From NCBI GenBank assembly GCA_947625765.1, contig CANQPP010000015.1, forward strand, positions 1-50,252: DNA of 50,252 nt. Direction: 5' to 3'. Origin of the DNA: an uncultured Clostridia bacterium (GTDB lineage: Bacteria > Bacillota > Clostridia > Christensenellales > UBA1750). The notes under the pieces are model-generated. The model saw only the letters and a program-made list of their open reading frames with translations, made no database searches and was not told the DNA's origin. Each line of letters opens with the position of its first letter. Position 1 is the stretch's first letter. Shown here piece by piece: positions 34,003 through 50,252 of the stretch. The position numbers and the translations under genes were made by a program.

Positions 34003-34095
34003 GAAACGGCGTATTATCAAAGGAAATCGGGCAGTTCCCGCAAGACTTGCGACCAATAGCGGTCGGGGCGAACAGCAGGAAAGGAGAAAAAGGCC

Positions 34096-34386
34096 GTGAC
34101 AGACATCACGAGGCTGCAAACGGTGCTGACCCCGGTATTTCGGGATTACGGGATCACCCGCGCCGTTTTGTTCGGCTCCGTTGCCAAAAGGACGGCCACG
34201 GACAAGAGTGATCTGGACCTGCTGGTGACGAGCGACCTGCACGGCCTGCGCTTCGTCGGGTTTATGGAAGCCGTTCGCCGTGCGGCGCAGATGCCGGTGG
34301 ATATTCTGGATGTTTCTCATATCGAGCGTGGCTCCAGGATCGAGCGGGAGATCGAGACGACCGGGGTGACCATCTATGAGAAATGA
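34096..34386 (+). CDS. mntA: MNT-type nucleotidyltransferase antitoxin
   Basis: 96 residues from GTG 34096 (AAGGAG 9 nt upstream). The pol-beta nucleotidyltransferase signature AVLFGSVAKRTATDKSDLDLLV (GS then DxD) is intact. In the MntA-HepT toxin-antitoxin family, MntA adenylylates the HEPN toxin to silence it. Its stop overlaps the start of the HEPN gene by 4 bp, as usual for this pair. The pair lies directly after lysS and before an unrelated GH172-type gene, which suggests a mobile insertion. The name follows the family and has not been tested here. Confidence 0.88.
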   Translation: MTDITRLQTVLTPVFRDYGITRAVLFGSVAKRTATDKSDLDLLVTSDLHGLRFVGFMEAVRRAAQMPVDILDVSHIERGSRIEREIETTGVTIYEK

Positions 34387-34703
34387 GCGCATCGTGGAAA
34401 AGATGCTTGCCCCTGTGCGAGAAGCTCATCCGCTATTGTGAAGGCTGTTCCTATGAAAGCTTCTCGGGCGACACCAAGCTGGTCGAGGCCTGTGTATTCA
34501 ATCTCAGCCAGATCGGAGAGTTGTGCCATTCGGTCGACGATGCTTTTGCAGCCGCTCACCCGGAAATACCGTGGGCGGAAATGTACGGCCTGCGAAACCG
34601 CATCGTGCACGACTATGAGGGCGTCAATCTCCTGCTCGTCTGGGAGATCATCAGCGAAGACGTGCCGGAGCTGAAAAGGCTGCTTCAAAACTGCAAACCA
34701 TAA
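34383..34703 (+). CDS. hepT: HEPN-domain toxin (HepT/DUF86 family)
   Basis: 106 residues, all helical. The RNase motif R-x4-H appears as RNRIVHDYEGV near residues 70-80, typical of HepT. Its Tyr is in the position modified by MntA in studied pairs (HDY). HEPN toxins cleave RNA when released from the antitoxin. The start overlaps the mntA stop. A terminator follows at 34748-34784. The module may stabilise the region or serve in phage defence. Confidence 0.88.
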   Translation: MSASWKRCLPLCEKLIRYCEGCSYESFSGDTKLVEACVFNLSQIGELCHSVDDAFAAAHPEIPWAEMYGLRNRIVHDYEGVNLLLVWEIISEDVPELKRLLQNCKP

Positions 34704-34747
34704 GCAGCACGGCTCGCTCTTTACGAAAAACCAAACCGATCCATCAA

Positions 34748-34784
34748 AGACGGACGTTCCCGCATCAGGGCCGTCCGTCTTTTT
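34748..34784 (+). terminator. Terminator after the HEPN gene
   Basis: Stem AGACGGAC (34748-34755) / GTCCGTCT (34773-34780) followed by TTTT. Confidence 0.75.
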
Positions 34785-34812
34785 GCATCAGGGTTTTTCG
34801 GCGTTCCTTCGC

Positions 34813-34840
34813 TTGTTTTTTCTCATGGTCGTGGTATACT
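34813..34840 (+). promoter_or_regulatory. Promoter of the GH172-type gene
   Basis: TTGTTT (34813-34818), 16 bp, extended -10 TGGTATACT (34832-34840), 44 bp before the start. Confidence 0.6.
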
Positions 34841-34883
34841 GAAAGCGGCCCTTTCATCAGAAATGCAACAGGAGGATGGCAAA

Positions 34884-35915
34884 ATGGCAGCGGACTATAC
34901 CCGGATCAGCGACCACGAGACATTCGCGTTTTCCGCGGAGAATCCCACCGGCGCGCGCAGCGGCGGATCCCGCGGCGGGGACTGCACCAAGCTGCGCCCC
35001 ACGGTGGAGATCCAGCCCGGCGAGGAGGCGGAGCTCGTCCGGGTCGAAGGGCCCGGCACCATCGAGACGATGTGGTTCACCGGGTACGTGGGGCACAGCT
35101 TCATCCTGCGCATCTACTGGGACGGCGCGGACTTCCCCAGCGTGGAGGCGCCGCTCTCCGCGTTCTTCGGCTGCGCCTACGACGAGGCGCTGCTGGACAG
35201 CAGCGGCAACTATCCCGCCTTCAGCGCCGCGGTGATGATGGTCGCGCCGGGCCGGGGCTTCAACAGCTACTGGGAGATGCCCTTCCGCAAGGGCTGCCGC
35301 ATCACGATGGAGAACCGCTCGGCGGAGCAAAAGAGCCTCTACTACTGCATCACGGGCGAGAGAGGCCCTGTCGCGCCGGACGCCGGCTACTTCCACGCGG
35401 CGTACCGGCAGGAGCACCCTGTGCAGCGCGGCCGCAGCTACACCGTGCTGGACGGCGTGCACGGCCAGGGGCAGTTCGTGGGCCTGACGCTGGCGACCGG
35501 GATGAACGGCCACAACAGCTGCTGGGTGGAAGGCGAGGCGCGCATGTATCTGGACGGCGACCGCTACCCCTCCCTGCACTACACCGGCACCGAGGACTAT
35601 TTCGGCGGCTCCTACGGCTTCGGCAACGACATCGCGCGCAGGAAGTACCAGACCTACGCCGGGCTGTACAGCGGCATGTTCGCGATCCTGGGCGACAACT
35701 CCCAAAATTACGCCCAGCAGCAGCGCTTTCTGCTCTACCGCTTCCACATCAAGGACCCCGTTCGCTTCCGCAGCGGCTTCCGCATGACGCTGGATAACCT
35801 CGGTTGGACGGGCCCCCGCTACGACGATTACACCTCCGTCGCCTTCTGGTACCAGAGCGCCCCCGCGCGCACGCCCTTCGCGCTCCCCGCGGACCACGAG
35901 CTCGTCATGCGCTGA
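34884..35915 (+). CDS. DUF2961/GH172-family protein
   Basis: 343 residues from ATG 34884, 8 nt after AGGAGG (a Met at 34863 lacks an SD). The two jelly-roll halves of DUF2961 are recognisable: GTIETMWFTGYVGHSFILRIYWDGADFPSVEAPLSAFFG in the first and SLHYTGTEDYFGGSYGFG with the conserved Glu in the second. GH172 enzymes characterised so far act on fructofuranosyl or D-arabinofuranosyl linkages, and many members are intracellular and hexameric. No signal peptide is seen. Substrate unknown; no sugar transporter is adjacent. Confidence 0.87.
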   Translation: MAADYTRISDHETFAFSAENPTGARSGGSRGGDCTKLRPTVEIQPGEEAELVRVEGPGTIETMWFTGYVGHSFILRIYWDGADFPSVEAPLSAFFGCAYDEALLDSSGNYPAFSAAVMMVAPGRGFNSYWEMPFRKGCRITMENRSAEQKSLYYCITGERGPVAPDAGYFHAAYRQEHPVQRGRSYTVLDGVHGQGQFVGLTLATGMNGHNSCWVEGEARMYLDGDRYPSLHYTGTEDYFGGSYGFGNDIARRKYQTYAGLYSGMFAILGDNSQNYAQQQRFLLYRFHIKDPVRFRSGFRMTLDNLGWTGPRYDDYTSVAFWYQSAPARTPFALPADHELVMR

Positions 35916-35933
35916 TCTCTCCCTATACATACA

Positions 35934-35977
35934 AACCCGCCGACTCGCTGGGAACACAGCCCCAGCGTCGGCGGGTT
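35934..35977. terminator. Convergent terminator between GH172 and sortase genes
   Basis: Stem AACCCGCCGAC / GTCGGCGGGTT with an inner CGCTGGG / CCCAGCG extension. The plus side continues into TTCTTGT. Confidence 0.75.
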
Positions 35978-35984
35978 CTTGTAT

Positions 35985-36710
35985 CTATTCCGCCCGCTTT
36001 CCCCGCACCAGCAGGCGGTAGGCGGTGCTGCCGTGGGGATGGCAGGAGATGAGCGTGCAGAAGTCCTCCCCCGGCTCGATGGCGAGGTCGTCCACCTGCC
36101 GGGGAAACACGACGGTGATCTGGTCGACCTCGTAGGTAAGGCATTCGTCCAGCACGGTGAGCGTGAACGCGTCCCCGACGGCCAGCTTGTCCAGGTCATG
36201 GAACAGGCGCGCGGTGGACAGGTCGCGGTGAGCGCACAGGGCTGTGTGGCAGCCTTCGCCGCCCACGGGCAGCGACGAGCCTGGGATGTGCCCCACGGCC
36301 TGCGCCAGCACGTCCTCGCCGGCGGTCTGGTAGATGGGCAGAGCCACGTCGATCTTGGGGATCTGCAGATAGCCCAGCATCCCGGTGCCTGTGAAGTCGA
36401 GCTGCGCGCGGTATGCCTGCATCTCCTCCGGCGAGAGCCGGAAATGCGTGCCCGGTCGCAAGCGGCAGTTATAGTCGAGCGCGGAGGCCCAAATCTCGCT
36501 TTTCTCCTCCTGGGAAAGCGCCGCGACCGCCTGATCGTAGCGGGCGATGCACGCGGCCATGCGCAGGGAATGGAACCAGTCGTGAATGGGCGTGTAGGCG
36601 AGCAGATACAGGCTCAAAAGGGCCGCGGCCCCGAGCGGGAGCCAGGCGGACAGGCGGGCCCTTTTGCCCGTCCGCGGCCCGTTTGGCGCCTTTTCGTGAA
36701 CGGCACCCAT
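35985..36710 (-). CDS. Class C-like (pilin) sortase
   Basis: 241 residues from ATG 36710. One N-terminal TM helix (21-40), then a sortase fold: LGYLQIPKIDVALPIYQ, CAHRDL (His161), TLISCHPHGSTAYRLLVRG (Cys223, Arg232). The TLxTCxPxGxxxxRLLVRG pattern is the mark of class C pilin-polymerising sortases. The usual C-terminal TM helix of class C is missing, so class D or a short C form is possible. It is the only sortase in the window and lies 86 bp after surface gene 1, separated by a hairpin. It is expected to process the LPESG signals of the three large surface proteins. Confidence 0.87.
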   Translation of the reverse strand: MGAVHEKAPNGPRTGKRARLSAWLPLGAAALLSLYLLAYTPIHDWFHSLRMAACIARYDQAVAALSQEEKSEIWASALDYNCRLRPGTHFRLSPEEMQAYRAQLDFTGTGMLGYLQIPKIDVALPIYQTAGEDVLAQAVGHIPGSSLPVGGEGCHTALCAHRDLSTARLFHDLDKLAVGDAFTLTVLDECLTYEVDQITVVFPRQVDDLAIEPGEDFCTLISCHPHGSTAYRLLVRGKRAE

Positions 36711-36748
36711 GGAAGCCCCGCCCCCTTGCGCTTGCGTTTTTATAGAAA

Positions 36749-36778
36749 GGGCCGGGGACAAGCGACTGCCCCCGGCCC
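36749..36778 (-). terminator. Hairpin between surface gene 1 and sortase
   Basis: Perfect 9-bp stem GGGCCGGGG / CCCCGGCCC. The following minus-strand sequence (TTTCTATAAAAAC) is a poor T-tract, so it may be a leaky terminator lowering sortase expression relative to the surface protein. Confidence 0.6.
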
Positions 36779-36795
36779 TCATGCGTTTGGTGAAG

Positions 36796-39700
36796 CTACC
36801 TCGCCCGGCGGCGGCGCAGCGCGGCCCAGACGGCCCCACCCAGGACCAGCGCGAGCCCGGCCAGCACACAGGGCCACGTCCCCGGCCCGCCGGATTCGGG
36901 CAGCTTATACTGGACCGGCGGATCGCCGACCGTCAGCACGCCATAAGGCACGGCTACCGTCACGCCCGCAGGTATGGATCTGTCCTCAAGCCCATAATAG
37001 AACAGAACGGGTCCTTCTAACTTCTGATATCCATCCGGGGCCTCGAGTTCCTCCAGAATGTAGTAGCGCCCAGGCTCCAGATTCCAGCCCGTGATGGTAA
37101 ACGTGCCGCTTTCGTTGGTCTCGAACTGCCAATCATCTTTGCTGTAACAGCTGAAGTTCTCGCCGTCTATGGTGAAGGTTTTGGTATCCTCCCAACTTTC
37201 CCCTTCCTTCTTCACCATATAGAACTTGAACTCCGCGCCCTTCAGCTTCCTGCTTGCGTTCTGACTGTCGGTCTTTTCGGTCGTCAGCCGGTACGTGTTG
37301 CCTTCGCCGCCAGCATAGACCTTATCGACCACCAAAGCGCCATCATAACTGCTGTCCGCTCGGTCCACGCCGTCGATGCTGGCCTTGTTGGACACCTCGA
37401 CCTCTCCCATTTCAGGGATGCTCGCCTGATAGTTGATGAACAGCTTCTTGCCGTCGGGTATCTTCAGCCTGTATTGGTTTTCCTTCTCCGAAGGCAGGAA
37501 GCCCCATTGGTCTAACGTCAATTCCCCGCCTTCCGTTGTGTATCCCAGCCCCGTCAGCTTGTTGCCGCTTTCGTCGGTCACTTCGATGCTGTTTGGATCG
37601 ATAACGATGCCGCTGCTCTCATCCGTTACGATCAAGTAGTCCTTATCCGGGTCCAGATCGGCGCCAATGGAGTTGATCTCCAGCTTGAAGCGGATCAGGT
37701 TGCTCGTGCCGTCCTGTTCGGCCGTCTTGTTCAGCCTGTTCGGGAAGTAGGGGACATCAGCCTCGGCATCCCAGTGGGGCATCGTGTTGTCCTCGATCAC
37801 AGCCCTATTGTGCACATTGGTCTCGGACCCGCTGTAAGCGTGCTCCTTGAGCCACTCGTCGGAGGCCTTCAGCGTATAGGTGAACTCCAATCGGTCCACC
37901 AAGGTGGAGTATGTATCGGCAAAGGCCCAGCATAAAAGACCGCTGTTGTTCCCAAAATTCCACAGGTACGCCTTGATATCGCCGTCGCCGAAATCATCTT
38001 CTGTTATGGAGCCTCTGGTATAATAATCGCCTGCACCGGGGGTATAGGGGTACACAAAAACCTCACCGTTTTTCCCATAGGTCGTCGCCGTCAGTGTCCC
38101 GTTCACATAGTCCCAGCCGTCGGCGTAATCGTCATAGAACGCGGCGGATGTGATGGGAGCGCCCTGATTGCCGACATCCAGCAAATACTCCCACACCGTC
38201 GAATCCGACAGGTTCAAGGAGACGGTATAGTCGATGGTGTTGTTGATCTTATCCAGTTTGCCGGTCTTGTTCAGCTTTTCTCCGTTGCTGAAGAACGTCT
38301 TATAACTGGGGAAAAAGGGACCATACTGGAGCGTGACCTTGTTCGAGATGCCCGTGAGCAGGACATCTTCCTTGGTCAGGGTGACCGTCACGGATGTGCC
38401 GTCGTCGTTTACGCGGCACAGGGTCAGGCCATTCGTCACATCCAGGTCGTATTCGACCGTTATCAGCCGCCCTAAATCGTACTTCCAGTGTCCCTTTGCG
38501 TACTCGCTATCCATCCCGAAGTAGATATACAGGTCTGCGGCCTTCACATCATCGATGCCATCATACAACCAGTAGATGTAGTTATCCATGCTTTTGGGAT
38601 CATAACCAGGCACATTCTCCGCCAGAGCATCATGATAGTCATAACCGACTAGTTCCTTCTTCTCGCCTGCTCCAGCCGGGAAGTCCTTTATGGGCCAATT
38701 GGCAACATCCTGGGCATAGACCTCCAAATTCCGGCAGTGGTCCGCGTCGAATCCCTGGACGATCCAGGTATAGCCGTCGTATTCCACCGTCGCGCGGTCG
38801 TTGATGAAGAAGGGGGCATACTCTGCGTTCGGCGCGACCGCCGCGTAAAGCGTATAGTGCAACAGCCCAGTCGCCTCGCTGTAATGCTGGTCCTTGCTCA
38901 CCACGCCGTCGCCGTTGGTATCCCAATAGACCTCCGCATAGCTTCCCCGCTTTTCTTCAACGGGTACGATCGTTTCCCCGCCGGTCTGCGGGTCCTTCAT
39001 GGGCATAGAGCCTGTAACGGTGGCTTCGTTGACGACCTGTCCGAAGAATCTGTCCGCCGCGCTCTGATCAAAGTTCGCCTTGTATTGGTAGTTGACGAAT
39101 AATTCGTCGCCCGTCTGCAGGGAGGCATACTTGCTCCCCTCTTTGAGCTTGACCTGGAAGGTCTGCAGCGCATAAGGGTTGGCCGGGTCGGGCGTCACGG
39201 GAACGAGTTCATAATCCTCTGCCGTCAATTCGATCGGCTCTCCGCCGCGCATGACTTTGGCCGAGATGTCATCCAACATCTCCAGGGTAATGCCCGGGGT
39301 CTGGGGCGGCGTGAGGACATCGCTCACGACAACATCCTGAATGGGGCCGTGGTCGACCGTCGTGTGGACGGTATACTCCAAAATTTGCGTGTCACTGTGA
39401 TAGTCGCTGAGCTTCTCCACCGTGATCTGGGGCTGGTCCGTGACCACAAACTTGAAGTTCTCGCCTGTGTCCCCGAAGTGCACGTCTTCGTCGCTGCCTC
39501 CCTCCATTTGCTGGGCGGTGGCATCCATATCGAAAGAGAGCGCAAAACTTGAGGATCCCTCCAGCGCTTTTTTTCCAGCATCGTTCAGCTCCACGGTGAG
39601 CACACCGTTTTCATCGATGGAGAATTTGCCGATCACCACTTCTTCACCATCGACTACGGCCTTCAGTTCAACATCGGACCTTTGCTCGACCTCGAAATTC

Positions 39701-40482
39701 TTCGGGATCTGATAGGTCATCTTTCCATCGTCCGACCACTGGAACTGGCCCTCGTCACCGCTCTGAGCGCCCTTCTCCTGAAATTCCAGGTGGATGCTAT
39801 ACTTCTCCCCCACGTACAGCTTGCCGTCCTTGACTTCCTCGCCCTTCTGGTCGGTGATCGTCACGTTGCCCACAAGGCCTTTCATATCCGGCACTTGAGG
39901 AGCCGCGATATACATGAACGCGAAATCCGAGAAGCCGTCCGTCGTGAAGGAAACGAAGCCGGCGTCGTCCACGGAGGTGTCCGCGATGAGCTGCGCTTCA
40001 TCTTCCCCCAAGTGCACCACCTGGATCGGGTCGCCCACCGCGAAGCCGTTCTGCAGTGCCTGTATGACCACGTTCACCGGCGCCGCCGGCTCGATCTCCT
40101 CCTCGCCCACGTAAAAGCCCACGTGGTAGATGGCGTTCATCTGGGGCGTTTCGCCGTCCCGGCCCGTGGCGGTCATGGCGGCGGCCATCTTCTTAGAATA
40201 GCTCTCCGGGTCGCTTTCCGGCGTCACCAAATAGGCCCGCAGCTGCGCGTCGCCGGGGATCTTCGCTTCCTTGCTGTACATGGCCTCCACATACACCGTA
40301 TCATCCCGGTAGGTCGCCGTGAGCGGGCCGTCCGCGCCGCGGAACTGCTGCCACGCCCCGACCGCTGCCAGGACCACGCCGAGCGCCATCGCCGCCCAGC
40401 ACGCGATGTTGAGCCACGTATTCGCCCTGTTTCCCTTGCCGAACCATTTAGTCATGGTATTTGCCTTCTTCGTTTCCATCAT
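36796..40482 (-). CDS. Giant LPESG-anchored surface protein 1 (pilin/adhesin-like)
   Basis: About 1,228 residues; start is one of two adjacent ATGs (40482 or 40479) behind GGAGGTGGC. A basic cytoplasmic head and a TM/signal segment (about 26-46) are followed by a ~150-residue domain shared with proteins 2 and 3 (ATYRDDTVYVEA to GFSDFAFMY). Several Ig-like adhesin domains follow, then a SpaA/Cna-B domain near 1085-1190 with the Glu box YYILEELEAPDGYQ, which suggests an intramolecular isopeptide bond. The sorting signal is LPESG at 1194-1198, then a TM helix and RRRRAR. The protein is likely a fibre or adhesin polymerised or anchored by the adjacent sortase. The only promoter visible upstream faces the wrong way, inside an inverted-repeat-bounded segment, so the gene looks OFF. 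Confidence 0.88.
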   Translation of the reverse strand: MMETKKANTMTKWFGKGNRANTWLNIACWAAMALGVVLAAVGAWQQFRGADGPLTATYRDDTVYVEAMYSKEAKIPGDAQLRAYLVTPESDPESYSKKMAAAMTATGRDGETPQMNAIYHVGFYVGEEEIEPAAPVNVVIQALQNGFAVGDPIQVVHLGEDEAQLIADTSVDDAGFVSFTTDGFSDFAFMYIAAPQVPDMKGLVGNVTITDQKGEEVKDGKLYVGEKYSIHLEFQEKGAQSGDEGQFQWSDDGKMTYQIPKNFEVEQRSDVELKAVVDGEEVVIGKFSIDENGVLTVELNDAGKKALEGSSSFALSFDMDATAQQMEGGSDEDVHFGDTGENFKFVVTDQPQITVEKLSDYHSDTQILEYTVHTTVDHGPIQDVVVSDVLTPPQTPGITLEMLDDISAKVMRGGEPIELTAEDYELVPVTPDPANPYALQTFQVKLKEGSKYASLQTGDELFVNYQYKANFDQSAADRFFGQVVNEATVTGSMPMKDPQTGGETIVPVEEKRGSYAEVYWDTNGDGVVSKDQHYSEATGLLHYTLYAAVAPNAEYAPFFINDRATVEYDGYTWIVQGFDADHCRNLEVYAQDVANWPIKDFPAGAGEKKELVGYDYHDALAENVPGYDPKSMDNYIYWLYDGIDDVKAADLYIYFGMDSEYAKGHWKYDLGRLITVEYDLDVTNGLTLCRVNDDGTSVTVTLTKEDVLLTGISNKVTLQYGPFFPSYKTFFSNGEKLNKTGKLDKINNTIDYTVSLNLSDSTVWEYLLDVGNQGAPITSAAFYDDYADGWDYVNGTLTATTYGKNGEVFVYPYTPGAGDYYTRGSITEDDFGDGDIKAYLWNFGNNSGLLCWAFADTYSTLVDRLEFTYTLKASDEWLKEHAYSGSETNVHNRAVIEDNTMPHWDAEADVPYFPNRLNKTAEQDGTSNLIRFKLEINSIGADLDPDKDYLIVTDESSGIVIDPNSIEVTDESGNKLTGLGYTTEGGELTLDQWGFLPSEKENQYRLKIPDGKKLFINYQASIPEMGEVEVSNKASIDGVDRADSSYDGALVVDKVYAGGEGNTYRLTTEKTDSQNASRKLKGAEFKFYMVKKEGESWEDTKTFTIDGENFSCYSKDDWQFETNESGTFTITGWNLEPGRYYILEELEAPDGYQKLEGPVLFYYGLEDRSIPAGVTVAVPYGVLTVGDPPVQYKLPESGGPGTWPCVLAGLALVLGGAVWAALRRRRAR

Positions 40483-40516
40483 GCCACCTCCAACGCTCCT
40501 TGCTCATGGCCTGAAC

Positions 40517-40542
40517 TACAACATAATCCGCATTATGTTGTA
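40517..40542 (+). repeat. Switch 1 left inverted repeat (recombination site)
   Basis: A site with perfect 11-bp arms TACAACATAAT / ATTATGTTGTA around the asymmetric centre CCGC. Palindromic arms around a short centre are the usual layout of a tyrosine recombinase core site. It lies 35 bp before the ATG of surface gene 1, so it would also form a hairpin in the mRNA leader. Confidence 0.85.
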
Positions 40543-40717
40543 AATCGGCAGCGGAAACTGGAAGACCGTACCGCCCGCGAGAGCTCCGCGGGCCGTTCGG
40601 ACCAAATTTAAGGCGCAAGAAACAAAGCCTTGTCATATTCTGGAAATGAGAGGGCTGTTTGCTGTGCGCATCGTTCGGTTTTGGCCCGTCAAGGCAAATG
40701 ATTCTTTCGGAAATCTC

Positions 40718-40746
40718 TTGCAAACGGCTGTCGGACGTGCTACAAT
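40718..40746 (+). promoter_or_regulatory. Promoter inside switch 1, facing away from surface gene 1
   Basis: TTGCAA (40718-40723), 17 bp, extended -10 TGCTACAAT (40738-40746). In this orientation it reads toward the 3' end of the recombinase 1 gene in antisense. It shares TTGCAAAC and GGACGTG with the promoter of switch 2. Confidence 0.75.
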
Positions 40747-40790
40747 GCAACTGTAAAAGTTTCTTTTCCTGGCGAGCTTTGGTTCGCTTT

Positions 40791-40816
40791 TACAACATAA
40801 TGCGGATTATGTCGTT
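40791..40816 (-). repeat. Switch 1 right inverted repeat (recombination site)
   Basis: Reads TACAACATAAT-GCGG-ATTATGTCGTT on the plus strand. Its reverse complement matches the left site over the contiguous 22 bp ACATAATCCGCATTATGTTGTA; the remaining outer arm differs at two bases. The centre is the reverse complement of the left centre, so recombination between the sites would invert the segment. Confidence 0.85.
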
Positions 40817-40837
40817 GACTGCGGGTCGGCGGCTTTT

Positions 40838-41680
40838 TTATTCGATCAAGTGCATGCGTTCCATGCGCTTGCGGTGTTCCGCGCCGGTGCTGATGATGTA
40901 CAGCCGCGTCGTTTCGATGCTGCTGTGGCCGAGGATGTCGGCCAGCTTGGCGATATCCTTTTCCAGCCCGTAGAACACCCGTGCGAACAGGTGGCGCAGG
41001 TTGTGCGGAAACACCTTCTTGGGATCGACGTGGGCCGCCGCGCACAGGCCCTTCATTTCGCGCCAGATGTTGCTGCGGTCCATCGGCCGGCCGGAGCGCG
41101 TGACGAACACCGCGCCGGAGCGGAGCTGCCTTTCGGCGATGTAGCGCAGCAGCTTCTTTTGCAGGGCCTTGACGAGGAACACCGACCGCGTTTTGCCCTT
41201 GAGCGAGACCGTCGCCTCGCCGCGGCGGACCGCCTCCACGGTGATGAAGGGCAGCTCGCTGACGCGGATGCCGGTGCCGCAGAGCGTCTGCAAAATGAGG
41301 AGCAGCCGCTCGTTGTGCGACCGCTGGGCCGCGCGGCAGAGCCGCTCGTACTCCGTCCGGGTGAGCTCGCGGTCCTCCGGGCAGAACAGCCGCCGCTGGA
41401 GCTTCACGGTCTTGACGCGGCAATCGTGCCAGCCCAGGAACGCAAACAGGCTGTTGAGGCTGGCCAGCGCCGAATTGACGCTCCGCACGGCGTAGCCGCT
41501 TGCCAGAAGCTGCCGCTTGTAGCGCACGACCGCCTCCTTCGTCACCGGCCGGCCGCGCTGCTCATCGGCGAAAAAGTGGATGTCGCGCAGGTATTTTTCC
41601 GCGGTGTTTGGGCTTTTTTCCTCCGCCCGGACGAACGCGGAAAAGCCGTCGATGGCGCGCGATGTGAGGAATCTTTGCAT
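40838..41680 (-). CDS. Tyrosine recombinase 1 (Xer-like, switch-associated)
   Basis: 280 residues from ATG 41680, preceded by GGAGGT (an upstream Met at 41749 lacks an SD). The N-terminal SAM-like core-binding domain (about 1-90) is followed by the catalytic domain with R139 (GTGIRVSEL), K163 (KGKTRS), H226 and R229 (HNLRH), H252 (LGHSS) and the nucleophile Y261 (TTRLYI), all intact. At this length it lacks an arm-binding domain, like XerC/D and the phase-variation invertases. Its gene ends 22 bp from the right site of switch 1. It is the likely recombinase for that switch. In the present orientation the switch promoter would transcribe its 3' end in antisense. Confidence 0.92.
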   Translation of the reverse strand: MQRFLTSRAIDGFSAFVRAEEKSPNTAEKYLRDIHFFADEQRGRPVTKEAVVRYKRQLLASGYAVRSVNSALASLNSLFAFLGWHDCRVKTVKLQRRLFCPEDRELTRTEYERLCRAAQRSHNERLLLILQTLCGTGIRVSELPFITVEAVRRGEATVSLKGKTRSVFLVKALQKKLLRYIAERQLRSGAVFVTRSGRPMDRSNIWREMKGLCAAAHVDPKKVFPHNLRHLFARVFYGLEKDIAKLADILGHSSIETTRLYIISTGAEHRKRMERMHLIE

Positions 41681-41710
41681 GGCATCTACCTCCGGGTAAG
41701 CTAGGAAAGA

Positions 41711-41738
41711 AGTATACCCGAAAAGTATGGCCGTGAAA
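41711..41738 (-). promoter_or_regulatory. Candidate recombinase 1 promoter
   Basis: Minus strand TTTCAC (41738-41733), 16 bp, TATACT (41716-41711), about 30 bp before the start codon. Confidence 0.5.
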
Positions 41739-41801
41739 GAGGCGAGCATCCGAAGAAAACGCCCGCAGACCCGACAAAGGTACGATTTGACAAAAAAGAA
41801 A

Positions 41802-41848
41802 CCCGCCGCGGCCGCTGGTTTTATGCGGTCGCAGGCGGGATTTTTTTG
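41802..41848. terminator. Terminator between recombinase 1 and surface gene 2
   Basis: Stem CCCGCC-GCGGCCGC / GCGGTCGC-GGCGGG with a T-run on the plus side (41841-41847) and an A-run on the other. It may act both ways and insulates the two units. Confidence 0.7.
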
Positions 41849-41865
41849 TTTTAGGGGAAAAAGAT

Positions 41866-41891
41866 GGGCCGGAACGCGATGTTTCCGGCCC
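41866..41891 (-). terminator. Terminator of surface gene 2
   Basis: Stem GGGCCGGAA / TTCCGGCCC followed by ATCTTTTTCCCC on the minus strand, 18 bp after the stop. Confidence 0.75.
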
Positions 41892-41908
41892 TTGGGTTTG
41901 GTTTGAAG

Positions 41909-44900
41909 TTAGTTCGCGCGGCGGCGCTTGATGAGGAACATGGCTAGGCCGCTCAACAGGATGAGCGCAAGCCCGCCCGCCAGCACGGCGGAAAGCCCGT
42001 TGCCGCCGGATTCGGGCAGCACATACGCGTTGGGCGTGTTGTCCACAATTACATTTTCGCCGCTGGAGTAATACACGACAGTCACCGTGAAATCTTTATA
42101 ACTGTCTCCAACCTTCATTCTGACAGTGACTTGTTCGGGTTCATCCGGGGCTTTACCGTACTTGAACACAAGCGGCGTAGAATCAAGCGTGTACCCATCG
42201 GGCGCCTTGGTCTCGACCAACACATAGTAATCATCATCTTTGGCGCCTTCCGGCTTTTTGATGGAGACACCCATACGGTTAGTGCTCGGGTCTCTTTCTG
42301 CGGTCGGACGATAGGTGTCCCCCGTCTTGTAAAGTGTGGTGGATTCGTCGCCATCTGTCGGAGTGATGTCCAAAGCATCTGACAGCAACGAACTCTTTTG
42401 CTTCGTATACAGAGCAAACTCGGCACCGTCAATAAACTTATTTGACTGTTCATCCTTCTTCAAAAGCCAGATATTGTCGGATGCGCCAGCGTCTACCTTG
42501 TCAATTTTCACGTCGAAATACGTGTCTTCCGTCTCGCCAAACTCAGCATCGCCAAACAGAGTCACCGTATTAACACCGTGAGGCCTCTCTCCCAAGACCT
42601 TCCTATCCAGCGTAACATTGTAAGTGATGGTCAGCTTGATCTCGTCCGGGACTAGAAGTTCCATACCATTTTCAGTGGGGGTCGCAGTAAAGGTTTTAGA
42701 ACCCAGAGAAACCTGCGAAGGATCATCGACCCACGTCAACTCACCGTCGGAAATTTCTTCACCGTTTTCATCAAAATGCGATCCCACGACCTTGATGGTC
42801 GACCAATCGATACTCATGCCCTTGAGCATCTCATCCTTGATGCTGTATGTCTGCAGGTCATGGGTCCCTCCACCCTCGGACGTACCAACAGCCATGTTTG
42901 CAGCTCCGGGATTCACAACGATGGTATACACCGCTTCATTGATGGCGTTGCCGGCCGCATCCGTAAGCAGCTTGGCGAACTTATCCACTATGTCGGGAGA
43001 GGTTTTGATCTTCTCGCTGTCGGAGAGGTCTTGACCTTCATACTTTATATGGGCAGTGTTGTCCAACGTCAGGTCTTCCGCTTGCAGATATTCGTTCTTG
43101 ATGCGCAGAGTGTACTGGAAAACATAGCGGCTGTCCTTGGGTTTATTCCCGCTGGCACTACTCTGGTATGTTTTCAACCACTCGTACAAAGAAGAAAGAT
43201 TGTATATTCCTGACGAGGTAGAATCTTTCACATTATGGGCATCATTAAAGTCTTTTGCCTCGACAGTCATGGTAGTTTTGTGATTTTCCGTTACGAACTC
43301 AATGCTATTTTGATCTTTTACTTTAAAATAGCCACGCAAGCCGCCGTCTATATCAAAAACCAGGACTTGCATCGAACCGGTCACATACTCCATCTTGTCG
43401 TCGAATTGATCCATAAAGACAAACGATTCGACCTGGCTTTCTGAAAAATCATTTATGGTTATTTCCGTACCTTCAGCATTCTTGAAGACGTTGTCGAACC
43501 TGACCCGGTACTCGATCTCGTTGCCGTTTTTGAGCTCCGCAAGCTTGTTTATGCTTGGTGTGGGGGTAATCTTGCTGTATTTATCCTCGCTCTTTAATTC
43601 GCGTCCATCATCGTTATCGAATTTTCCCCATACCTCGTTATCAAGCCTGTTGCCCGCTTCCAACAGCTGGCGAAGGGTATAGTCAGTCTCTACATATGTT
43701 TTTCCATCATCCAATTCCTTTACAAGTTTAGAATCACCAGGCACCCTGTACGTGATATTCAATGTCACTTCTTCATTGAACGGCCAGAGAGAGTTATGGT
43801 AATTACCCTGATCTTTTGTGTTGAAGTTAGTATTGAACCAAATACAGAACTCACGTACGTCTTTCTCGGTATCCCCTTTAGCTGTTTGCACTACGGTATA
43901 GCTATAGTAACTAGTATCTCCATTATAAACCGGATCCTTTACTTCTACAAACGTAAGCGGTTGGTTATTGCTGTCGAAGGCTTGGAAATTCGTGATCTCC
44001 GGGATATTGTTGACGAAAAAGCGGTTTTGCACAATATTTCCGTTTTCGTCGTAGAACGTAACATGCTCTTTAGGAAACTCCAACTGATCCCGAATGTAGA
44101 AATAGGGCCATTCTGTATCATCATAGCTTGGACCAGCTTCTTGGCCTTCAGAATCTGTCATTCTGCGCAGCTCTTCTTCCGGCGGGACCTTAACCGTGAT
44201 GGTATACTCAACATAATCTTCGGTGTCTGTATAGACATCGTTCGTCAAGAGCTTCTGGATGCCGCCGCTGCCGATCACGATCTCGCCAACAACGCCTTCC
44301 GGCAGGGCTTCCGTAAGGCCGCTCACCTTGTTGGTGAAGTTTTTGCTCTTACCCTGCTCCACAGGATCATGTTTGGTAAAGTATTCAACTTTGACCCAAT
44401 CGCCCGGTTCCCAGGCAACTGCGTGCCCTTCCGGCTGCCAGTCCATTTTACCAGTCCAAAATAGGTCGTCCTTGCCCGGAATCGTTACATTAAACCCAGT
44501 GATCCTACCCTGGTCATCGACCACAATATCCGTGACACCTGCCGCTTCCATGGCAGATTTATCGATCTGGCCATCCTTAAACTGCCATTCGATCTTCTTG
44601 GTCTTCATGGTGCCGTTGCCGTTTTTCCACTTGATCTCAAGGGGCTGAGTTGTATCCACCCACTGTCCCTCGCCAATGGTGTCCGTCAACTTTGATCCGC
44701 GCACATCAAAAGCACCGCTGCCAACGGAAATTTCCCAGTCAATGGTATCGCCCGAGCCCGGAGTGCCCTTCTTTTTCAGCTGAAGATCGTCCACCGTCTT
44801 TTTCTCTGTAGCTTCCGTTTTACCTTCGACTTTGTCCACGCCACTGGGCGTCGAGCATTCCAGCTTGGCCGTGTTATCCAAAGTGAAGTGATACCTATCT

Positions 44901-46279
44901 TCACCCTCGTCGAACTTCACATTTTTGTTCGCATCTTCATTGTCGAACTCCACGGCAACTTCATATTCGATCTCGATCTTCTGTCCTTCGGTCAATGCCT
45001 CCGGCAGGTTCTCGGTTACCCATCCATTTTCAGTCTTTTTTGCAGTAGCCGGGGGATCCAAGACGATCTCATTGCCATATTCGTCGTAAAGCTTGAGGGT
45101 AAACGTCCCGTCGACGAGAGACATGCCCTGTTCCATCTGGTCCAAAATCTTGGGGTCCAGAATAGCGCCTTTTTGGACCTCCATAGAAACCTTGTACTTG
45201 ATCGTATGCTTTACAGGATCATATTCCCCGGCAGCTTTGCTAAGGTCCACCTTGGGGTTGCCAGTTATGTCAAATTGGTGCTCATTGCTATCGCTCCAGG
45301 GGAAGCTGACCGAATTACCGTCTTTCGTTCCCACAGCAGTCATATTGAAAGAAGCACGGAACCAGGCGTCTTCGTGCGTGCTCAGATACGTCGGATCGAC
45401 ATTAAATGTAACGATTCCGGTTTCTTCATCGACAGAGTAGGTACCGATCTGCGTGCCATCTTCCGCTACAATAGGCAGGTCTTTAACGCCGGTTGCCAAA
45501 AAGCCGTCCGGCAGCTGGAAAGTCATGGGGCTGGTGAACTGGTTCGCGCCGTTTTCCGCAAATTTGACCGTATAGGTATACTTCTTGCCCAGCTCGATCT
45601 TTCCGTCTTCGGGCTCCTTGCCGTTGCTGTCGACCAGCTGTGCAAACTCGATAAAGCCGCCTTCATTCAGGTTCGTTCCGTTCGCTATGGTCGTCGGCGT
45701 TCCCAAAACGAATACGAAGTCCGAGAACCCGCCCGCGGTGAAGGTCACGCAGCCCGCCTCGTCCACAGCGGTGTCCGCGATCACTTCCACGGCCTGCTCG
45801 CCAAAGTGCACCACCTGGATCGGCTCGCCCACGGCAAAGCCGTCCCGCAGCAGCTGCACCGTCACGTCCACGGGCGCGGCGGGCTGCACCTCCTGCTCCC
45901 CTACGAAGAAGCCAAGGTTGTAGATGGCGTTCGTCGGGGCGGTCTCGCCGTCCCTGCCCATCGCGGCCATCGCCGCCGCCATCTCACGGCTGTATGCGTC
46001 CGGGTCCGCCTCCGGCGTTACCGCAACCGCGCGCAGAACCGCTTCCTTCGGGATCTGCGCATCCGCCCCGAACGACGCCGTTACATACACGCTCTCGTCT
46101 TGATACGTTGCCGTGATCGGCGCGGTCGCCGCGTTGTAATGCTTCCACGCCCCAAAGGAAAATAGGAGCACGCCGAGCGCCAGGGACAGCCAGCCCGCCG
46201 CGCCCAGAAGAGAGATCGCCCAGCTTCGCTTGCCCGGCATCCTCTTTGCGGTGTCGTTCGTCCTTGTCGTTTTCATCAT
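41909..46279 (-). CDS. Giant LPESG-anchored surface protein 2 (pilin/adhesin-like)
   Basis: 1,456 residues from the double ATG at 46279/46276, again behind GGAGGTGGC. An N-terminal TM/signal segment (about 24-47) and the shared ~150-residue domain (ITATYQDESVYVTA to GGFSDFVFVLG) are followed by a series of adhesin/isopeptide-type domains. These have many DxxDxM-like and YxVxxxV elements (for example VEYTITVKVPPEEELRR). A C-terminal SpaA domain carries YYVLVETKAPDGYT. The sorting signal LPESG is at 1421-1425, followed by a TM helix and KRRRAN. The middle of the gene is visibly more AT-rich than the window average, suggesting a different history. The promoter in the adjacent inverted-repeat segment faces away, so the gene looks OFF here. 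Confidence 0.88.
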   Translation of the reverse strand: MMKTTRTNDTAKRMPGKRSWAISLLGAAGWLSLALGVLLFSFGAWKHYNAATAPITATYQDESVYVTASFGADAQIPKEAVLRAVAVTPEADPDAYSREMAAAMAAMGRDGETAPTNAIYNLGFFVGEQEVQPAAPVDVTVQLLRDGFAVGEPIQVVHFGEQAVEVIADTAVDEAGCVTFTAGGFSDFVFVLGTPTTIANGTNLNEGGFIEFAQLVDSNGKEPEDGKIELGKKYTYTVKFAENGANQFTSPMTFQLPDGFLATGVKDLPIVAEDGTQIGTYSVDEETGIVTFNVDPTYLSTHEDAWFRASFNMTAVGTKDGNSVSFPWSDSNEHQFDITGNPKVDLSKAAGEYDPVKHTIKYKVSMEVQKGAILDPKILDQMEQGMSLVDGTFTLKLYDEYGNEIVLDPPATAKKTENGWVTENLPEALTEGQKIEIEYEVAVEFDNEDANKNVKFDEGEDRYHFTLDNTAKLECSTPSGVDKVEGKTEATEKKTVDDLQLKKKGTPGSGDTIDWEISVGSGAFDVRGSKLTDTIGEGQWVDTTQPLEIKWKNGNGTMKTKKIEWQFKDGQIDKSAMEAAGVTDIVVDDQGRITGFNVTIPGKDDLFWTGKMDWQPEGHAVAWEPGDWVKVEYFTKHDPVEQGKSKNFTNKVSGLTEALPEGVVGEIVIGSGGIQKLLTNDVYTDTEDYVEYTITVKVPPEEELRRMTDSEGQEAGPSYDDTEWPYFYIRDQLEFPKEHVTFYDENGNIVQNRFFVNNIPEITNFQAFDSNNQPLTFVEVKDPVYNGDTSYYSYTVVQTAKGDTEKDVREFCIWFNTNFNTKDQGNYHNSLWPFNEEVTLNITYRVPGDSKLVKELDDGKTYVETDYTLRQLLEAGNRLDNEVWGKFDNDDGRELKSEDKYSKITPTPSINKLAELKNGNEIEYRVRFDNVFKNAEGTEITINDFSESQVESFVFMDQFDDKMEYVTGSMQVLVFDIDGGLRGYFKVKDQNSIEFVTENHKTTMTVEAKDFNDAHNVKDSTSSGIYNLSSLYEWLKTYQSSASGNKPKDSRYVFQYTLRIKNEYLQAEDLTLDNTAHIKYEGQDLSDSEKIKTSPDIVDKFAKLLTDAAGNAINEAVYTIVVNPGAANMAVGTSEGGGTHDLQTYSIKDEMLKGMSIDWSTIKVVGSHFDENGEEISDGELTWVDDPSQVSLGSKTFTATPTENGMELLVPDEIKLTITYNVTLDRKVLGERPHGVNTVTLFGDAEFGETEDTYFDVKIDKVDAGASDNIWLLKKDEQSNKFIDGAEFALYTKQKSSLLSDALDITPTDGDESTTLYKTGDTYRPTAERDPSTNRMGVSIKKPEGAKDDDYYVLVETKAPDGYTLDSTPLVFKYGKAPDEPEQVTVRMKVGDSYKDFTVTVVYYSSGENVIVDNTPNAYVLPESGGNGLSAVLAGGLALILLSGLAMFLIKRRRAN

Positions 46280-46315
46280 GCCACCTCCAAGTGCCATTCA
46301 TCCATGCTTCCCGCC

Positions 46316-46346
46316 GCTCCCCGACTCGCTTCGGGGGGGCTTTTTT
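46316..46346 (+). terminator. Antisense-facing terminator in the leader of surface gene 2
   Basis: On the plus strand TCCCCGA (46318-46324) pairs with TCGGGGG (from 46331), then GGC and TTTTTT (46341-46346). It points into the invertible segment. In the sense (minus) direction it gives a leader hairpin without a T-tract. Confidence 0.6.
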
Positions 46347-46420
46347 GCGGTACGTGGCCGGGATCGATCGCATCGTTTCCCCCGTCCAACAAGGCCTTAA
46401 AAAAGCCCTGAAAACCTAGG

Positions 46421-46464
46421 AAAACCAGAACAGGCCCGGCAAACTTGTACCGCTAAATTGCGTA
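46421..46464 (+). repeat. Switch 2 left inverted repeat
   Basis: 44 bp that match the reverse complement of 47920-47963 at 43 positions. Weaker matching continues inward (CTGCGA at 46467-46472), and outward an AAAAAAGCCC block recurs at the same 12-bp distance in both leaders. It lies about 140 bp before surface gene 2. Confidence 0.92.
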
Positions 46465-46565
46465 TTCTGCGAAAAGGGTTTAAGCAGTCAAAACGCAAGC
46501 AGGGATTTTTGCCTGTTTTCCGGGCTTTTTTGTGGTGGCAGGAAATGGCAGGGGCGCGATAGACC

Positions 46566-47693
46566 CTATTTGACTGTAAAGTGTGACTGCGCATCCAGTT
46601 TTTCCATGTTAAGTCTCTTTTGCTCCAGCGTCGTGTGGACGTAGCGGTCCAGCGTCGTGGAGACGCGCGCGTGGCCCATGACCTCGGACAGGGCCTTGAT
46701 CTCAAAGCCCGCCTCCACGCAGCGCGTCGCGAACGTGTGGCGCAGCGTGTGGAAGTGCACGCCTTCCAAGCCGCAGTCCTTGGTGTATTGTTTGAATCGA
46801 TATTGCAGCTTGCGCGGCTCCATGTATTCCTCCGTTCCGGTCAGGACGTAGGCGTTCTTCTTGTGCGGGTCGAAGCGGCGACAGAGCTTGACCATCTCGC
46901 GCGTCAGCGGGATCGTGCGCGCGGAGGTCTCGCTTTTCGGCGCGCCGATCAATATTTTCGTCTTGTTGCCGCCTTCGCCGCTTAAGTCCCGGATGCGCTG
47001 CATGGTCGCGTCCACGCGCAGAGTCCTGTCGCGCACGGACAGCATGTCCCACTTGAGCGCGCACAGCTCGCCGATCCGCAGCCCCGTCATCAGCGCCAGC
47101 AAAACGCCCATTTTGCAGGCGTCCGTGTCCGCCTGCAGGTAGGCCGTCAGCCGCCGCTGCTCCGCGGGCGAGAGGACGCGCAGCTCCTTTCGCGGCTCCC
47201 GCGGGTAGCGGATGTCCACCGCCGGAAACAGCCCCGGCTGCATCCCGGAGCCGTAGCGCAGCACCGCGTGTAGCACCATCAAAGCGTTTTTCACGCTCTG
47301 CACGGAGAGCCCTTCCGCCAGCAGCTGCTGCTTGAACGTCTCGACCGCCTGCGTGTCGATGGAGCTGGGGCTGCGCAGGCCGAGCTTCGGCAGTATGTGC
47401 CGCCGAAGCGTCGAATCGTACTTAACATACGTGGACTCCTTCACCGCGCCCTTCTGCCTGCGCAGCCACTGCTCGCACCAGCAGCCGAAGCGCAGCCGCT
47501 TGTCCTCGATGGCGTTCGCTTCCCCGTCCGCGAGCGCCGCTTTTGACTTCTCCGCCTTCGCCTTTGCCTCCACGTAGGACTTCCCGTAGCAGAACCCGTA
47601 GCGGATCTTGCCGGAAAGCTCGTATCCCTTGACATAACGGGCTTCCCAGCGCCCGTCCTTTCGCAAAAAAATGTTGTCGCCGTTTCTTGGCAT
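46566..47693 (-). CDS. Tyrosine recombinase 2 (phage/Tn916-type integrase) inside switch 2
   Basis: 375 residues from ATG 47693, 6 nt after GGGAGG. Residues 1-60 look like an arm-binding three-strand sheet (GDNIFLRKDGRWEARYVKGY). The core-binding domain is about 65-165. The catalytic domain has R206 (GLRIGEL), H315 and R318 (HTLRHTF), H341 (MGHARV) and the nucleophile Y351 (TLDRYVH). All active-site residues are present. This subfamily normally integrates and excises phages or conjugative elements. Here no other mobile-element genes are present and the gene is framed by inverted, not direct, repeats, so a DNA-inversion role is favoured. Being inside the segment, it moves with each flip. Confidence 0.92.
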   Translation of the reverse strand: MPRNGDNIFLRKDGRWEARYVKGYELSGKIRYGFCYGKSYVEAKAKAEKSKAALADGEANAIEDKRLRFGCWCEQWLRRQKGAVKESTYVKYDSTLRRHILPKLGLRSPSSIDTQAVETFKQQLLAEGLSVQSVKNALMVLHAVLRYGSGMQPGLFPAVDIRYPREPRKELRVLSPAEQRRLTAYLQADTDACKMGVLLALMTGLRIGELCALKWDMLSVRDRTLRVDATMQRIRDLSGEGGNKTKILIGAPKSETSARTIPLTREMVKLCRRFDPHKKNAYVLTGTEEYMEPRKLQYRFKQYTKDCGLEGVHFHTLRHTFATRCVEAGFEIKALSEVMGHARVSTTLDRYVHTTLEQKRLNMEKLDAQSHFTVK

Positions 47694-47846
47694 CTTTCTC
47701 CCTCCCGGAACATAGATTGTATGTAGGGCCCGCCGACTACCCCTTCGGCAGAGGCTCAACGCGTGCCCGATTTTAACGCGCCGCAGGCCCCGGAAGCCCC
47801 AACCGCACAAACAAAAAATTTAATGCGTAAAATTTCCTGCCTTTTG

Positions 47847-47874
47847 TTGCAAACCCATTAGGACGTGGTATAAT
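47847..47874 (+). promoter_or_regulatory. Promoter inside switch 2, facing surface gene 3
   Basis: TTGCAA (47847-47852), 16 bp, extended -10 TGGTATAAT (47866-47874). Transcription would begin near 47881, cross the right repeat and enter surface gene 3. It is the best promoter in the segment and explains an ON state for gene 3. Confidence 0.8.
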
Positions 47875-47919
47875 TAGTATGAAAATAGAGGATCGAAGGT
47901 CGGGTTCTGTATCGCAGGT

Positions 47920-47963
47920 TACGCAATTTAGCGGTACAAGTTTACCGGGCCTGTTCTGGTTTT
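47920..47963 (-). repeat. Switch 2 right inverted repeat
   Basis: Partner of 46421-46464. The single mismatch is A instead of G at 47944. It ends 47 bp before the start of surface gene 3, so it is transcribed as part of the leader. Confidence 0.92.
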
Positions 47964-48010
47964 CCCGCAGAAACTGGGCTTTTTTGCCAACTGTACATGG
48001 AGGTGGCATG

Positions 48011-50252
48011 ATGAAAACGACACGGAAAAACGACGCCGCAAGGCCCCTTTTTGGCAAGGGTTACGCAGTCAAAATGATGAGCGCGGCGGGCTGGCTGTCC
48101 CTGGCGCTGAGCGTGTTGCTGTTCGCCTGCGGGCTGTTTGTGCACGTGCAGGCGGCCAGCGCCCCGCAGGTGATGACCTATCGGGACGACGCCGTGATCG
48201 TCACGGCCACGTTCGGGGCGGAGGCGCAGATCCCGAAGGAAGCGGAGTTGCGCGCGGTGGCGGTGACGCCGGAAAGCGACCCGGAGAGCTATTCCAGCCG
48301 GATGGCCGCGGCCATGAGCGCCGCCGGGCAGGAAGGCGAGGCCGCGCCGAAAAACGCGCTGTACGACCTGGGCTTTTACGTGGGCGAGCAGCCCGTTGAA
48401 CCCGCCGCGCCTGTGGACGTGACGGTGCAGCTGCTGCGGGACGGCTTTGCCGTGGGCGAGCCCATCCGCGTGGTGCATTTTGGGGAAGAAAACGCGGAAG
48501 TGATCGCGGACACGGCGGTGGACGAGGACGGCTGCGTCTCCTTCACGACGGACGGCTTCTCGGATTTCGCCTTTATTTTGGGCGAAAGCCGGATAAATCT
48601 AGGCCCCAACGATATGAGGGACCTTGTGAGCGGCGTAACGATCACCGACGGGAAGGGCGATCCCGTTACGCAAGGCCCGCTGTATGTGGGCGAAAAGTAT
48701 AGGATCACCCTGACGTTCTCGGAGGGCGGCGCCCAGAGCTCTAAGCAATTTCACTGGGACGAAGACGGCACCATGACGTACCAGCTCCCGGAATACTTTA
48801 AGGTAGAGGAGAAAAAGGATGTTCCGTTGACCATCAAGGTCAATGGGGAAGACGTCACGATCGGCACATACTCCGTGACCGAGGACGGCAAGATCGTCGT
48901 CACGTTGAATGAGGACGGAAAGAAAGCACTGAGTGCCACTTCAGGCGCTTCGCTCAATTTTGAGATGGACACCACCGTCCAGTCGGTCGAGGGCAGCGAC
49001 AGTGGGAAGGTCGACTTCGGCGGTACTGGTGAAGACTTTGACTTTGAGGTCGTAGACCAGGCCCGCGTGGAAGTGGATAAGCAGGGCAAATATACGGAAA
49101 ATGAGAATAAACAGGGCGGCAAGCTGGAATACACCGTGTCGACCACGGTAAAGCACGGCTCCGTCCACGACCTGACCATCCTTGACGAGTTCACCCCGCC
49201 CAATACCTCGGCGCTGAACATAGAGGACGTAAACCCCGATGATATCAAAGTGACGCTCAAACAGCGCGGGGTCGATGACACCGTTACAGAGATCAAGCTT
49301 ACACAGGGCGAGGACTACGAACTGGTCGAGGTGCCCGATGCAGAGCATCCCGGGAAAAAGACCTTCCAGGTCAAGCTCAAGAAGGGCAGCAAATATCCTA
49401 CCCTGAATGAGGGTGATGTGCTGGAAGTTACCTACCCGTATGAGGTGCAGTATGTGAAGGGCTCCACCGATGTGTTTTGGGGCAACGTGGCAAACGACGT
49501 CACTGTCACGGGCAAGGGCAAGGTGCCGGATCCTGCAGGCGAACCGGGTAAAGAGACGCCGGAGATCGACATTAAAGAACAGCGGGGCAGCAATGTGGAG
49601 ATCATAGTGACGCCTCCGGGGGACGGCATCATTTTCAAGACCCAGGAGTTTTCCGAGGCCGACCACAAGCTGCACTATACCCTTTATACCCTGGTGCCGA
49701 AGGGCACATGGAAGCCGTTCTTTATCCAGGACGACATGGTGGTGGAATTTGGCGGGGAAAGGTACAATCTCCAGGAGTTTAAGAAGGACGGCCGGGTCAG
49801 CAACCTCACGGTCAGCGCCGTGGACGTGGATGATAGTGGCACACTCGGAAACTGGTCGGACAGCACCGACGAACAGCGGCGGCAGAGCCTGGAAGAGCTG
49901 AAAGAAAGCGCGCATGAACTGACAGGCTATGATATGTACGGCGTATGGAACCCTTCCCCGGAGGGCTATGACCCTGAGAGTGTGGAGAATTGTATCCGCC
50001 TGTGGAATAACAATAATCTCGACATCATCTTCGGAGAGTGGGAATATGCAAAACAAAGTCTATTCGGCAACTGGAACTACAGTAAAGACCGCCTGATCAT
50101 CACCGAGTACGATCTGGATATGTCCAATGATGGGGGGCCGCTCACTCTCGTTGATACGAGCACTTACGATACGAATATAGAAAAAGAAGCCAGCGATGTG
50201 CTGCTGGCGGGCATCCGGAATACCGTCCATATGCGCTTTGACGGGTATAACC
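48011..50252 (+). CDS. Giant surface protein 3 (pilin/adhesin-like), N-terminal part, runs off right edge
   Basis: Open from the double ATG at 48008/48011 (GGAGG 7 nt before the second) to the window end, about 747 residues. A TM/signal segment (about 25-46, ending VHVQA-ASA) leads to the shared domain (VMTYRDDAVIVTA to GFSDFAFILG). That domain is closest to protein 2 (RAVAVTPE, VQLLRDGFAVGEPI). From about residue 200 on it follows protein 1 instead (LYVGEKY, MTYQLPEYFKVEE, LHYTLYTLVPKGTWKPFFI), so the gene is a mosaic of the two. The C-terminal sorting signal is outside the window. Its leader is supplied by the switch 2 promoter, which faces it here (ON). Confidence 0.85.
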   Translation, partial: MKTTRKNDAARPLFGKGYAVKMMSAAGWLSLALSVLLFACGLFVHVQAASAPQVMTYRDDAVIVTATFGAEAQIPKEAELRAVAVTPESDPESYSSRMAAAMSAAGQEGEAAPKNALYDLGFYVGEQPVEPAAPVDVTVQLLRDGFAVGEPIRVVHFGEENAEVIADTAVDEDGCVSFTTDGFSDFAFILGESRINLGPNDMRDLVSGVTITDGKGDPVTQGPLYVGEKYRITLTFSEGGAQSSKQFHWDEDGTMTYQLPEYFKVEEKKDVPLTIKVNGEDVTIGTYSVTEDGKIVVTLNEDGKKALSATSGASLNFEMDTTVQSVEGSDSGKVDFGGTGEDFDFEVVDQARVEVDKQGKYTENENKQGGKLEYTVSTTVKHGSVHDLTILDEFTPPNTSALNIEDVNPDDIKVTLKQRGVDDTVTEIKLTQGEDYELVEVPDAEHPGKKTFQVKLKKGSKYPTLNEGDVLEVTYPYEVQYVKGSTDVFWGNVANDVTVTGKGKVPDPAGEPGKETPEIDIKEQRGSNVEIIVTPPGDGIIFKTQEFSEADHKLHYTLYTLVPKGTWKPFFIQDDMVVEFGGERYNLQEFKKDGRVSNLTVSAVDVDDSGTLGNWSDSTDEQRRQSLEELKESAHELTGYDMYGVWNPSPEGYDPESVENCIRLWNNNNLDIIFGEWEYAKQSLFGNWNYSKDRLIITEYDLDMSNDGGPLTLVDTSTYDTNIEKEASDVLLAGIRNTVHMRFDGYN

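Follow-up and report, generated by a model that had tools for sequence, protein, structure and literature searches.

A 50,252-nt contig from an uncultured Clostridia bacterium, referred to here in its entirety as the window, carries between two divergent surface-protein genes (genes 2 and 3) a segment at 46419-47965 that is, with a probability of about 0.8 as judged from the sequence, a self-carried promoter inverton alternating the two genes by means of its own recombinase. In the proposed mechanism, the tyrosine recombinase encoded within the segment, P0001, would bind two inverted core sites at the segment ends and invert the DNA between them, and an outward promoter, always diverging from the recombinase gene, would read through the repeat. 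The present orientation would allow transcription of gene 3 and the flipped orientation transcription of gene 2, with alternate display of two related cell-wall proteins as the outcome. We infer that the segment's own recombinase performs the flip and that transcription follows the promoter; that the window copy flips is suggested by its anatomy together with that of its relatives.

Anatomy of the segment and its flanking genes

The segment is bounded by a left inverted repeat arm at 46419-46472 and a right arm at 47912-47965, each of 54 nt, in which 51 of 54 positions match including a degenerate inner end. The near-perfect stretch spans 46 bp with 45 matches, and the 44-bp repeat with 43 matches described in an earlier sequence-only reading was recovered as the outer part of this longer pair. 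Nearby, the remaining long inverted repeats are accounted for by genes 2 and 3, whose coding regions are paralogous, and by a 24/24 repeat belonging to a second switch. Inside the repeats and between the divergent genes lies the strong extended -10 promoter that the same reading had placed there (47847-47874, + strand, TTGCAA-16-TATAAT). A TG precedes its -10 element, and it scores highest of 4 promoter-like sites, compared with 0.5 expected. It is directed outward from the segment, now towards gene 3, giving the arrangement of a promoter inverton, with a promoter enclosed by inverted repeats and facing a target gene in one orientation.

Gene 2 (41909-46279, - strand), the predicted target after a flip, encodes a giant surface protein with a SpaA domain and a C-terminus consisting of an LPESG motif and a membrane tail. 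Its paralogue gene 3 (48008-50252, + strand), which the promoter now faces as its predicted target, is truncated where the contig ends. The description of both as LPESG-type genes thus holds for the anchor of gene 2, while any LPxTG end of gene 3 lies outside the view. The two proteins are homologous (42% over 525 aligned columns), with N-termini 70% identical over 192 aa, and the ribosome-binding site and start region of gene 2 (46246-46289, - strand) matches that of gene 3 (47998-48041) at 40/44 positions. No convincing terminator was found between the recombinase gene and the gene it points at, and expression of the gene on the silent side may therefore be leaky; the permanent expression of one gene or the other, as proposed in the sequence-only reading, may not be strictly either/or. 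A good terminator-like hairpin was observed at 46317-46348 (+ strand) in the gene 2 leader, directed out of gene 2 towards the segment. A candidate attenuator in the gene 3 leader was rejected, its fold being no better than that of shuffled sequences (z -1.0).

The recombinase P0001

The 375-aa P0001 is encoded inside the segment (46566-47693, - strand) and contains a phage-integrase catalytic domain and a SAM-like core-binding domain (Phage_integrase and SAM_3). Its catalytic residues R206, K253, H315, R318, H341 and Y351 are intact and are invariant in 21 homologues, and this R-K-H-R-H-Y set, together with the fold, identifies it as a tyrosine recombinase. In the predicted structure (mean pLDDT 87), three strands plus one helix make up an N-terminal domain at residues 8-56, and by both sequence and fold the nearest solved structures are the Tn1549 integrase followed by the lambda integrase. 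P0001 had been described as a phage/Tn916-type integrase with an arm-binding domain; the predicted fold makes an arm-type N-terminal domain plausible, whereas no Pfam arm-domain model matched the protein.

Homologous cassettes in related genomes

A protein search with P0001, covering some 400 genomes from the order and some 390 from the class, recovered homologues in many families. Each locus was tested for an enclosing inverted repeat, with mispaired flanks from different loci as the control (mean score 9.3, 99th percentile 14) and a calling threshold of at least 16. Of the 62 homologous loci that had large flanks, 54 have inverted repeats enclosing the recombinase gene, and at the other 8 none were found; the loci were picked by similarity to P0001 and are interrelated, with a few near-copies, and the 54 are not independent cases. 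Enclosure was found for 41 of 52 matches that include the N-terminal domain, compared with 1 of 22 that lack it (Fisher p about 1.5e-9, kinship ignored), and 9 of the latter 22 have an inverted-repeat pair outside the gene, 110-380 bp apart. Carriage of an arm-domain integrase within its own segment, previously considered unusual, is accordingly the rule among full-length homologues. On a tree of the homologues the self-carriage labels cluster, yet several changes are needed, which implies either repeated gain or loss of self-carriage or repeats that escaped detection.

Of the 54 cassettes, 44 have a strong outward promoter in the interval from the recombinase start to the nearer repeat (4.9 expected), and none has one on the 3' side of the recombinase gene (0.9 expected). 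The expectations were derived from dinucleotide-preserving shuffles and allow for the shorter interval on the 3' side (median 95 versus 222 bases). Other cassettes point towards genes for SpaA-domain and S-layer-domain surface proteins, Wzz-like chain-length proteins, transporters, chemotaxis functions and LytTR regulators, flank genes having been called mechanically, with small ones uncertain. A LytTR-type regulator occupies one side of the cassettes L109 and L113 (genome G082) and L194 (genome G100), and in the two G082 cassettes it stands opposite a giant surface protein, which suggests alternation of a regulator with a structural gene. The self-carried promoter cassette is apparently a widespread family.

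The survey also bears on whether the segment might be flipped by a recombinase encoded elsewhere, with the carried P0001 dispensable. The genome of the window contains three further matches homologous to P0001, and one recombinase can serve many switches, as with Mpi of Bacteroides fragilis according to PMC5903667. This explanation is nevertheless improbable, given that the gene is kept inside the repeats in 54 loci, that the catalytic residues are intact in all 21 aligned homologues, that the only close paralogue is 53% identical, and that no copy of the window repeat was found outside the segment in the same genome. The paralogue (L051, contig 16 of genome G000, 34000-43906) lies beside a pilus-like locus encoding a 504-aa protein with the N-terminal domain common to genes 1-3. 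The contig end beside the L051 cassette lies in a sequence that recurs on other contigs, which hides the cassette's own repeats, and it was discarded as a sign of inversion.

Predicted core sites

The repeat arms of the family are usually imperfect palindromes with a short spacer (mean score 8.1, compared with 4.3 for shuffles), a structure that fits a core site. The core-site profile derived from the relatives, with the window excluded, reads TTCGTAGAGT-N5-ACTCTACGAA. Scored with this profile, 46449-46473 in the left repeat ranks second of all positions in the 50 kb, giving the predicted left core ACCGCTAAAT-TGCGT-ATTCTGCGAA, and at the mirror position in the right arm the predicted core, 47911-47935, repeats this spacer, inverted. 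The match of the window core to the family profile is only moderate, and the inner half-sites of the two arms are not the same. On this placement, the outer portion of the long repeat would most plausibly be leader sequence common to both targets. A first palindrome guess for the window core, CGGTA-aacttg-TACCG, was superseded by the family-profile match.

Evidence for inversion

In the relative G100, contig C3 contains flank A, a repeat, the segment and a second repeat, followed by flank A again, in reverse complement, for about 120 bp. A search of this genome with the repeat core revealed a third copy where contig C44 starts; the first 123 bases of this contig are identical to the same segment end before it diverges, exactly at the repeat, into a flank B that holds a LytTR response regulator facing outward. 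The sequenced DNA of G100 probably contained both orientations, since one segment end joins two flanks, the outcome to be expected if the orientations were mixed; a chimeric assembly at the repeat, of only about 19 bp, is the less likely origin of these junctions. Homologous signal-peptidase operons were also observed, independently, on the promoter side of the cassette in L152 and L153 but across from it in L095, L096 and L151, a comparison of the same kind of target and not necessarily of the same locus.

Neither the genome of the window nor the other sequences searched contained an inverted copy of the window segment, the species being represented by one genome. The comparison with relatives suggested in the sequence-only reading therefore yielded no reversed copy of the segment itself but did yield a related cassette, that of G100, joined to two flanks. 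Several further candidates were rejected. An IMG/VR contig contains 22 bp that match the repeat exactly; they fall within a long structural gene of phage-like type, with no recombinase in the vicinity, and the match was attributed to chance. Contig ends beside the G157 cassettes are uninformative, their sequences recurring on other contigs, and for the G720 contig that ends at its repeat the partner contig was not found.

Taken with the enclosing repeats and the promoter position in the relatives, the G100 junctions strongly support the earlier proposal that a tyrosine recombinase inverts a promoter cassette. They also bear on an explanation without any flipping, in which the repeats are only homologous leader sequences, produced when a surface gene was duplicated in inverted orientation, with the recombinase present as a bystander or decayed mobile element. 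Homology of genes 2 and 3 and of their leaders on both sides would by itself yield inverted repeats. Most relatives, however, have short enclosing repeats and flanking genes without homology, the promoter position is conserved, one relative appears to hold both orientations, and the core predicted from the relatives falls within the window repeat, all of which make the duplication account very improbable.

Two proposed targets for one promoter

An alternation between genes 2 and 3 is the most economical reading of the anatomy, because there is a single promoter, a scan of the gene 2 leader found no sigma-70-like promoter for gene 2 outside the repeats, the start codon of gene 3 is only 42 bp from the repeat, and a parallel exists in the cassette L166. 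The latter lies between divergent, mutually homologous sets of exopolysaccharide genes. The sugar transferases of the two sets are homologous (56% identity), their sugar-kinase genes look similar, and the repeat of the cassette is extended by the homologous gene starts to about 165 bp. One of these gene starts is now cut off from its downstream part by a stop, and that side may therefore be partly decayed. Homologous targets on both sides, initially regarded as unusual, are thus not unique to the window.

The segment could instead act as a one-sided ON/OFF switch, on which a single gene depends and the other either has its own promoter or is silent, and an outward-facing gene is indeed found on one side only in many relatives. 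We consider this unlikely for the window, since the gene 2 leader has no promoter-like site outside the repeat, genes 2 and 3, both intact in their visible parts, have a common leader and start region, and L166 provides an example of two-sided homologous targets.

A second switch in the same locus

A third paralogue with an LPESG end, gene 1 (36796-40482, - strand), has upstream of it a second promoter inverton of the classical kind at 40521-40812, bounded by 24-bp perfect inverted repeats (40521-40544 and 40789-40812). A 280-aa XerC-like tyrosine recombinase, P0002, is encoded just outside it (40838-41680, - strand). The promoter of this inverton (40718-40746, + strand) faces away from gene 1, which is therefore probably OFF in the present assembly. 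The locus thus comprises three paralogous surface genes and two switches of differing design. Immediately downstream of gene 1 is a sortase gene (35985-36713), which gives the locus the look of a surface-protein island equipped with a sortase of its own.

Discussion

The segment resembles the Hin/hix switch of Salmonella flagellin, and those of Gin and Cin, in that an inverted segment contains both the recombinase gene and an outward promoter. In the case of Hin a single operon (fljBA) is driven, and repression of the other locus is indirect, whereas the window promoter would face one or the other adjacent gene directly. Hin is moreover a serine recombinase; P0001, a tyrosine recombinase with a predicted arm-type domain, would work like Hin and does not belong to the serine invertases. 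The same combination of tyrosine recombinase and inverted repeats occurs in fimS with FimB/FimE, in the Clostridioides difficile flagellar and cwpV switches with RecV and in the gut invertons found with PhaseFinder, which also share promoter inversion or orientation-dependent expression of surface structures. These systems have a short segment with the recombinase outside, nearby or distant, unlike the window segment; the second switch at 40521-40812 is of this classical kind. The integrases of lambda and of the Tn916/Tn1549 family combine an arm-type N-terminal domain with core-binding and catalytic domains; P0001 has the latter two and may have an arm-type domain as well. Unlike their elements, the segment has no conjugation or phage genes and carries predicted core sites, inverted, at its ends; with only a recombinase gene and a promoter between inverted rather than direct repeats, it is not a Tn916-family element.

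PMC5903667 gives Hin as an example of a recombinase within an invertible segment. Inverton surveys, PMC11892184 among them, associate invertons with tyrosine recombinases encoded nearby and, in the accessible text, give no description of a self-carried class. For a tyrosine recombinase inside its own promoter inverton, the open-access literature yielded only the statement on Hin and such general surveys. Promoter invertons are already known, and what appears to be new here is a tyrosine-integrase version of a Hin-like self-carried switch.

More broadly, the survey raises an idea that we hold at even odds: a large unnamed family of arm-domain tyrosine recombinases across the class may be dedicated to self-carried promoter inversion, as the tyrosine counterpart of Hin. 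Its cassette would front envelope, chemotaxis and regulatory operons, in some genomes alternating two homologous targets, and the arm domain would go with self-carriage and may govern inversion. This raises the question of why an inversion enzyme keeps an arm-type domain normally used for directional integration. Dozens of related bacteria have the same kind of apparently self-flipping cassette, in a family that spans many genera. Consisting of a recombinase, a promoter and two sites, it would be a compact portable module that makes a gene phase-variable, or alternates two genes, with no outside recombinase, and the simple sequence rule that it provides would allow phase variation of surface proteins, polysaccharides and regulators to be predicted in bacteria that are mostly uncultured.
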